In this document: piece by piece, positions 31,296 to 32,992 of the stretch
How positions within the stretch are numbered: the first letter of the stretch is position 1
How the letters are laid out: every line of letters starts with the position of its first letter
NCBI RefSeq assembly: GCF_002209565.1
Contig: NZ_NJIH01000010.1
Location: 248,001 to 312,000 of the forward strand
Direction of reading: 5' to 3'
Length of the DNA stretch: 64,000 nt
Source: Candidimonas nitroreducens
Lineage (GTDB): Bacteria; Pseudomonadota; Gammaproteobacteria; Burkholderiales; Burkholderiaceae_B
Translations under genes and position numbers: made by a program
The notes under the pieces: generated by a model
Seen by the model: only the letters and a program-made list of their open reading frames with translations
What the model was told of the DNA's origin: nothing
The model's database searches: none

Positions 31296-31721
31296 CTATT
31301 TCGCGAAAAGCTGGCCCATGTCCTTGAACGCCTTGAACTCCAGGGCGTTGCCACAAGGGTCGAGCAGGAACATGGTGGCCTGCTCGCCCACCTGGCCCTT
31401 GAAACGGACATAGGGTTCGATCACGAACTTGGTGCCGAACGACTTCAGGCGCTCGGCCAGGGCTTCCCATTGCGTCCATTGCAGCACGATGCCGAAATGC
31501 GGCACCGGCACCTCGTGGCCATCGACGGGATTGGTGTGGGCGTGATCCTGCGAGGCCGTCTTGGGATGCTCGTGGATCACCAACTGGTGGCCATAGAAAT
31601 CGAAATCCACCCACTGGGTGCTGGAACGGCCCTCTTCCAGGCCAAACACTTCGCCATAGAAGCGCCGGGCGGCAGCAAGATCGTAAACGGGGATGGCAAG
31701 ATGGAACGGGGACAGGCTCAT
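31296..31721 (-). CDS. VOC-family (glyoxalase/bleomycin resistance/dioxygenase fold) protein
   Basis: A 141-residue vicinal-oxygen-chelate protein with the two beta-alpha-beta-beta-beta modules. Probable metal ligands are His7 (SPFHLAIPV), the His in PVPHFGIVL and Glu in [10 protein letters not shown]. The [10 protein letters not shown] end motif is typical. The longer frame to 31859 is not used because the conserved domain begins at MSLSPFHL and the extra part is low-complexity. Convergent with the PhoX-like gene. It may be a small dioxygenase or lyase; the substrate cannot be assigned. Confidence 0.82.
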
Positions 31722-32122
31722 GCTGGACTCTGGGGTTGAGGATAGGCTGGGGTTAAGGATGGAGTTCGGAAATGCAAGGATTGTATCCGGGAGGCGAATC
31801 GTGCCGCGGCGAGGCCGGCGGGCCGCTGCAGGGCCCATGGGCCGGACGGGAAGGATCACCGCTTCCTGGGCAACTCTTGCAGTCGCCCGCCATCATAAAG
31901 CCGGCGACAAAATAATAAAATCAATATATATTTCTATAAAGCACAAATTTAATTGATGAGTCGACGAATTAATGAACCGATGAATCGATAAGCCGATGAG
32001 AAATCGAGAGATCGGTGAATTGACGCGTCGACGAATCGAAGTGCCGACGAACCGAAGTGCCGACGAATTGACGTGTCGACCAGTCGATGAATCGATGCAC
32101 CGATGAATTTTGTGATGGCTGA
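31722..32122. other. Intergenic region, AT-rich then repeat-bearing
   Basis: About 400 bases lie between the VOC gene and the divergent LysR gene. 31900-31960 is strongly AT-rich (probable promoter area). It is followed by the 16-base tandem repeat array described separately. Open frames crossing it only translate the repeat. Confidence 0.6.
31962..32108. repeat. Imperfect 16-bp tandem repeat (about nine units)
   Basis: Units start at 31962, 31978, 31994, 32013, 32029, 32045, 32061, 32077 and 32093, every 16 bases except one 3-base insertion after the third. Typical units are CGACGAATCGAAGTGC, CGACGAACCGAAGTGC and CGATGAATCGATAAGC. Each begins CGAYGAA or close to it, and an 8-base sub-period (CGATGAAT) is visible. 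The array ends 14 bases before the LysR start codon, so it lies in the leader or promoter. Confidence 0.85.
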
Positions 32123-32992
32123 ATGATCCGCGAGCTCAAGACCTTCATCGCCGTCGCCCAGGAAGGCAGCTTTGCCGCGGCAGGCAACAAGATCGGGCTG
32201 ACGCAGTCGGCGGTCAGCGCGCAAATGCAGCGGCTGGAAAACGAGCTGGGCCTGGCGCTGTTCGAGCGCGCCGGCAGATCCGCGCGTATCAGCACAGCGG
32301 GCCGACAAGTCCTGGAACAGGCTCAGGAGCTCGTCCGCCTCTACAGCCATCTTGGTTCGGCACAGGCCGGCACCACGCCCGGAGGCCTGGTGACCCTGGG
32401 TGCCATCGCTTCGGTGCAGCGCTCGCTGGTGCCTGATGCGCTGGCACGCTTCTACCGGCGCTACCCAGGCTGCCGCACACGCATCGTTCCGGGCCTGTCC
32501 ATCGAGCTGGTGAACCTGGTCGATGCGGGCGAAATCGACATGGCCGCGATCATCCGGCCGCCATTCTCGCTGCAAAGCGACCTGCAGTGCACGGTGCTGG
32601 CGCGCGAGCCGTTTCGCCTGATCACACCGCGCGGCGTGCCGGGCAGCGACTGGGCCGAGCTGCTGGCCAGCCAGCCTTTCATCCGCTACGAGCGCACATC
32701 CTTCGGCGGCCGGCAGGTCGACCGCTTCCTGCGCGGCATGCACCTCACGCCGCACGAGCTATGCGAAGCCGACGAGCTGGAAACCATCGTCAAGCTGGTC
32801 GCCAACGGCGTAGGCATCGCGCTGCTGCCGCAAACCGCGGCCTTCCGGCGCTGGCCCGCCGGAGTCAGGGCCATCGACCTCGCGCAACATACCTTCCACA
32901 GGGATATCGTGCTGGTGCACCGGGCCGAGCAAACCCTGGCCGAGCCCGCCCTTGCCCTGGTGCAACTGCTGGAGCGCCAGGCTGCCCGATGA
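32123..32992 (+). CDS. LysR-family transcriptional regulator
   Basis: A 289-residue LysR regulator. The HTH is MIRELKTFIAVAQEGSFAAA with SQSAVSAQM-type continuation LTQSAVSAQMQRLENELGLA. The effector domain begins GLVTLGAIASVQRSLVPDAL, and GVGIALLPQTAAFRRWP is near the C-terminus. ATG 32123 is forced because TGA precedes it directly in frame. No clear ribosome binding site is present; the upstream 16-base repeat occupies the leader. Convergent with the GntR gene (three bases between stops). Possible targets are the divergent VOC gene and its own promoter. Confidence 0.88.
   Translation: MIRELKTFIAVAQEGSFAAAGNKIGLTQSAVSAQMQRLENELGLALFERAGRSARISTAGRQVLEQAQELVRLYSHLGSAQAGTTPGGLVTLGAIASVQRSLVPDALARFYRRYPGCRTRIVPGLSIELVNLVDAGEIDMAAIIRPPFSLQSDLQCTVLAREPFRLITPRGVPGSDWAELLASQPFIRYERTSFGGRQVDRFLRGMHLTPHELCEADELETIVKLVANGVGIALLPQTAAFRRWPAGVRAIDLAQHTFHRDIVLVHRAEQTLAEPALALVQLLERQAAR

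Follow-up and report, generated by a model that had tools for sequence, protein, structure and literature searches.

A decayed octanucleotide array lengthens the leader of a LysR-type regulator gene in Candidimonas nitroreducens

The leader of a LysR-type regulator gene in Candidimonas nitroreducens is lengthened by an ordinary, species-specific, decayed slippage array. The gene lies in a stretch of 64,000 nucleotides, further referred to as the window. The array probably grew by slippage or local duplication from ATTGATGA and the ATG with which this gene starts and has since decayed, and no regulatory job is required to account for it. It is a real feature of the genome, and so far we have found no evidence that it has a job. 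Coordinates of the array and of the surrounding features are given in Table 1.

Table 1. Features of the LysR locus; coordinates are positions in the window
Feature	Coordinates	Strand	Basis or remark
Glyoxalase-fold (VOC) protein gene, divergent, 141 aa	31296..31721	-	Pfam PF00903
Promoter-like site of the LysR gene, GCGACA-17-TATATT	31904..31932	+	consensus match only
Conserved AATCAATATATATTT block, probable promoter/operator common to LysR and the divergent gene	31919..31933	+	orthologous leaders
ATTGATGA, probable seed and opening unit of the array	31952..31959	+	octamer directly before the start codon in close orthologues
Octanucleotide array, 19 units and a 3-base slip, consensus CGATGAAT	31954..32108	+	Tandem Repeats Finder, lag identity, octamer cutting
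163 bp in excess of the usual leader: array and tail TTTTGTGATGGCTGA before the ATG	31960..32122	+	orthologue alignment
Upstream ATGs 32087, 32103 and 32115, opening two short frames	32087..32126	+	stop codons ending at 32122 and 32126
LysR-type transcriptional regulator, 289 aa	32123..32992	+	Pfam PF00126, PF03466

Identity of the array to itself equals 0.60 at lag 8 and 0.64 at lag 16, the window means being 0.26. In 10,000 resamplings of the array under a first-order Markov model, neither value was reached, and when the 64-kb window was ranked at each of the two lags, the array took the top place for both. Hence, its units stand head to tail well beyond chance, as is expected of a slippage array. 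The mean identity of the 19 octamers to the consensus is 74%, and the longest exact repeat within the array is 15 bp. Adjacent units are identical at 0.59 of positions on average, and units two apart, at 0.68. The self-complementary tetramer TCGA occurs eight times. We considered and rejected the array as coding DNA, given an in-frame TGA directly before the LysR ATG and frames broken by stops.

The sequence-only reading had described this repeat as nine 16-bp units headed by CGAYGAA at 31962–32108, with one 3-base slip. This location holds (9 × 16 + 3 bases), as do the distance of 14 bases between the end of the array and the ATG at 32123, and the slip, found near 32002–32004. The 16-bp period stands as a local higher order, distinct only at approximately 32021–32076, and fails as the basic unit, which is 8 bp. 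Tandem Repeats Finder reports a period of 16 with 3.2 copies and 86% matches at 32029–32080, and breaks the array into pieces, several of them with period 8. The CGAYGAA head is exact in five of the nine sixteen-base units and inexact in the other four; two further exact heads (32085 and 32101) are in a phase other than that of these units.

Relatives of the LysR gene were drawn from 61 genomes, from 200 genomes of the family (of which 62 matched at E 1e-60 or better), and from named genomes, where the best 80 of 128 loci were retained. For the comparison of leaders, 92 distinct ones with at least 60% protein identity were used, that of the window among them. The LysR start codon is the expected one: ATG AT. 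follows the leader in all 92 retained orthologues. In 83 of the 92 orthologous loci, LysR has a homologue of the glyoxalase-fold gene as a divergent neighbour within 600 bp; we found no report of a LysR gene paired with a divergent glyoxalase/VOC gene in the open-licence literature.

The distance between the end of the AATCAATATATATTT block and the start codon is exactly 26 bp in 79 of the 92 distinct leaders, and this spacing is held to the base across orthologues from beta- and gammaproteobacteria. Within these 79 leaders, positions −42 to −32 are strongly kept (0.97 to 1.0), as are −28 and −27, −18 to −14 (0.91 to 1.0) and, just before the ATG, −8, −7, −6, −3 and −1 (0.89 to 0.99). The octamer directly before the ATG has the form ATTKRTGA in 52 of the 92 leaders, being ATTTGTGA in 34, ATTGATGA in 14 and ATTTATGA in four. 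The absence of a ribosome binding site before the LysR ATG, observed earlier, is confirmed and proves to be a trait common to the orthologous leaders: a four-base Shine-Dalgarno core occurs at −20 to −4 in five of the 92, the window's leader not included, and 87 have none. With the exact 26-bp spacing and the lack of this core in most leaders, the region where LysR translation starts may be under the control of the LysR protein itself.

The corresponding distance is 189 bp in the window and 49 bp in Candidimonas humi, the nearest relative. Seven leaders other than the window's, including that of C. humi, have longer spacing (37–62 bp) without an array. One leader has a spacing of 137 bp on a weak motif match, two have 4 and 11 bp, both on weak matches, and one has no acceptable match to AATCAATATATATTT. 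Since a few array-free leaders are also longer than usual, the spacing alone is not special.

In the window leader, the conserved block is intact through ATTGATGA, and the alignment places the array between this octamer and the ATG. The extra length equals 20 × 8 + 3 bases. The leader of C. humi DSM 25336, whose LysR orthologue is an 89% match, has 23 extra bases and no array. We tested 135 leaders (134 distinct) for periodicity, and only that of the window stands out (0.69, the next being 0.43). None of the other leaders is comparably periodic at the orthologous place, as is expected if the extra DNA was inserted by growth. At the start codon, 14 of the 92 orthologues read ATTGATGAATG. This form, found in the relative G014 and in the MAG locus L067, contains TGATGAAT, which differs from the array consensus by one transition and shares the phase of the first unit. 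Since the array unit is only one transition away from an octamer present at the start codon of orthologues, local growth is the simplest origin. It counts against ATTGATGA as the seed that the commonest octamer before the start is ATTTGTGA. The earlier suggestion that the array grew by slippage in an 8-base sub-period is thus well supported by the orthologue comparison as regards growth, slippage itself being the presumed mechanism.

The history that we propose is as follows. The array would have arisen from ATTGATGA-ATG, through slippage during replication or through local duplication, in the lineage of C. nitroreducens and not in that of C. humi. The start codon would thereby have been pushed 163 bp further from the conserved block. 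Point changes would then have eroded the units, and the array is now expected to be fairly stable. The direct consequence would be a leader of approximately 184 nt instead of approximately 21 nt, without a Shine-Dalgarno sequence, counted from the putative transcription start. The locus presents a clear before-and-after case, in which an array growing from a conserved operator/start-codon stretch loosened a kept spacing.

The extent of divergence agrees with this history. Units differ from the consensus at 26% of positions, and fourfold sites differ from those of C. humi at 46 of 156 (29.5%); the comparison is rough, since units multiply while decaying, and it makes an origin after or near the split from C. 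humi, followed by decay, plausible. One result speaks against it: substitutions in the array comprise 30 transitions and 10 transversions, versus 16 and 30, respectively, at the fourfold sites (Fisher p 0.0002). This excess of transitions could result from a few multiplied variant units or from codon bias at the fourfold sites. Moreover, the deviations are spread unevenly over the unit (only 79 of 20,000 redistributions were as uneven), positions 2, 3 and 5 being nearly fixed. Simple decay does not predict such unevenness, which therefore counts against pure neutrality and leaves a small probability for a selected role; shared descent of the units may explain it.

The region 31700–32200 contains two promoter-like sites, compared with a mean of 0.3 in shuffles. 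The second one is on the minus strand (31940–31912). Given that the promoter-like site of the LysR gene overlaps the conserved AATCAATATATATTT block, the array is probably transcribed as a leader, with a putative transcription start at approximately 31939.

We also looked at tandem arrays elsewhere in the genus. Stretches that had not been chosen for arrays contained 26 arrays of at least three copies per 780 kb in C. nitroreducens and 14 per 480 kb in C. humi. In the relatives from the same family, there were three per 400 kb in G014 and none in 200 kb of G074. Pooled, this gives 40 arrays per 1,260 kb of Candidimonas versus three per 600 kb of the relatives (Fisher p 0.0001), the genus being represented by two genomes, C. 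nitroreducens and C. humi. These counts suggest that short tandem arrays abound in Candidimonas, which favours the proposed growth by slippage; the open-licence literature returned nothing on tandem repeats in it beyond unrelated work on fly genomes. In pattern searches, both C. nitroreducens and C. humi proved to have octanucleotide arrays, whose units include CCGATGTG, CCGACGTG and CGATGTAG, and further GCAGTTCC, CGACGGGG and GCAGCCAC; several of these arrays are 95–100% regular. No octamer array of at least three copies occurs in the 780 and 480 kb that had been taken without regard to arrays, which fits poorly with the matches of the pattern searches.

Some of these arrays deserve separate mention. 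On contig C27 of C. nitroreducens (approximately 81.6–81.8 kb; L037, 1500–1629), directly after a hydrolase-like reading frame, there is an octamer array of 16 copies that is 97% regular and consists of three CCGATGCA units followed by CCGATGTG. As a candidate for variation in the number of units, it surpasses the array in the LysR leader. A nine-copy array in an AT-rich intergenic stretch of contig C13 (approximately 29.6 kb; L150/L182, approximately 1498–1572) comprises two blocks of units one transition apart. In two octamer arrays of C. humi (L245, 8428–8549, and L249, 11019–11137), one variant of the unit follows another block by block, which looks as though a unit had changed and the change had then spread. 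The first bases of C. humi contig C1 (L230, 1–127) form a perfect GCTTG array of 25 copies, and its position at the very end of the contig suggests that long arrays may break assemblies in Candidimonas.

One initial proposal was that the array may be a variable-number locus; slippage would then alter the number of units and thus tune LysR expression between cells or strains. This reading fits a tandem array located in a leader, in a genus with many arrays of which several are highly regular, and a segment (32021–32076) whose adjacent units are still alike over 15 bp. It is disfavoured by the state of the units: their 74% identity to the consensus and the 15-bp limit of exact repetition contrast with the regularity of several other octamer arrays of the genus, and the window array has no long runs of near-identical units of the kind expected in a variable locus. 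As a general rule, eroded repeat units lower slippage rates. Rapid variation of the unit number is thus unlikely in so eroded an array, known from one genome of the species, and we regard variable-number tuning as unlikely. A search of the open-licence literature found neither repeat-number phase variation in the untranslated region of a LysR gene nor anything on Moraxella uspA2 as a comparison.

It is equally improbable that the array forms a regulatory leader, in which upstream ATGs and short frames borne by the repeats would hand ribosomes over to the LysR start, or a fold would control access to it. The putative leader holds eight upstream ATGs. Two frames, opened by three of them, stop on or directly before the LysR ATG, the window leader has no Shine-Dalgarno core, and the unit positions are unevenly conserved, all of which would suit such a role. 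On the other hand, the upstream frames are very short (3 to 36 codons), and the array exists in a single copy, leaving no second one in which conservation could be tested. The structured leader of the sequence-only reading finds weak support. The predicted fold is slightly better than those of shuffles (z-score −2.21; 5 of 200 shuffles folded as well), and some folding is expected from the self-pairing TCGA of the unit. Around the ATG, an accessibility of 0.47 is predicted, similar to the values for the array-free relatives C. humi (0.43) and G014 (0.49). Neither the modelled fold nor the accessibility of the start codon says much for a function, and a structured leader is unlikely.

The array could also have been copied in from another YGAYG-type octamer array of the same genome instead of having grown locally. 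The genome does contain at least three further arrays of this type, on C27 at approximately 81.6–81.8 kb (CCGATGCA/CCGATGTG) and on C13 at approximately 29.6 kb (CCGACGTG/CTGACGTG) and 446.7 kb (CGATGTAG). However, when both Candidimonas genomes are searched with the DNA of the array, only the array itself is found, its first unit falls on the conserved start octamer, and octanucleotide arrays with different units also occur. An origin by copying is therefore quite unlikely. A search of plasmids for copies of the array finds no match.

A YGAYG core is common to several octamer arrays of both genomes and had suggested a genus-specific repeat family. Controls speak against such a strict rule: in the 200 family genomes, the YGAYG pattern matched 6 and its backward control 7, and the backward core also matches several arrays in Candidimonas. 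The core AYGGY has matches in C. humi, none in C. nitroreducens and one, not a repeat, in G014; the core GAGYY has no match in four genomes. The backward controls of AYGGY and GAGYY gave 15 and 0 raw matches in C. nitroreducens, and 3 and 8 in C. humi, respectively.

Returning to local growth and decay, one variant of it would assign the array a role after all. In a new leader born from slippage, the nearly fixed G-A-n-G positions and the upstream frames would be kept by selection, ribosome hand-over replacing the 26-bp coupling between operator and start. This is very unlikely; if true, tandem growth would have turned a conserved start-codon octamer into a regulatory leader. As a regulatory device, the array is unproven and probably minor.

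A multi-site operator, with the LysR protein or another regulator binding along the repeats, seems the most doubtful proposal: regular spacing would favour it, but the conserved block is located outside the array, on its upstream side, and is present without it in relatives, the AATCAATATATATTT unit is not repeated within the array as far as can be read, the array occurs at the orthologous place in the window's leader only, the sole clearly periodic one of those tested, and, at a period of 8 or 16 bp, neighbouring sites face different sides of the helix. The idea has a parallel in binding sites of four tandem octanucleotides predicted in a Geobacter genome paper (PMC2700814).

For these sites, 48 aligned sequences yield the consensus GTTGCTYN with four units per site (PMC2700814). 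The predicted Geobacter sites resemble our array in having tandem 8-bp units, and differ in that they recur in the genome, whereas the array has 19 units and no second genomic match. The sabA repeat of Helicobacter pylori is described as a contingency (phase-variable or rheostat) repeat (PMC4081817). Both repeats are located near the promoter region of a gene; compared with sabA, the window array has imperfect units and is not known to vary or to affect expression. The closest likeness is to bacterial intergenic slippage repeats, with which the array shares short head-to-tail units, length steps of one unit and presence in one lineage only, although several other arrays of the genus are less eroded.
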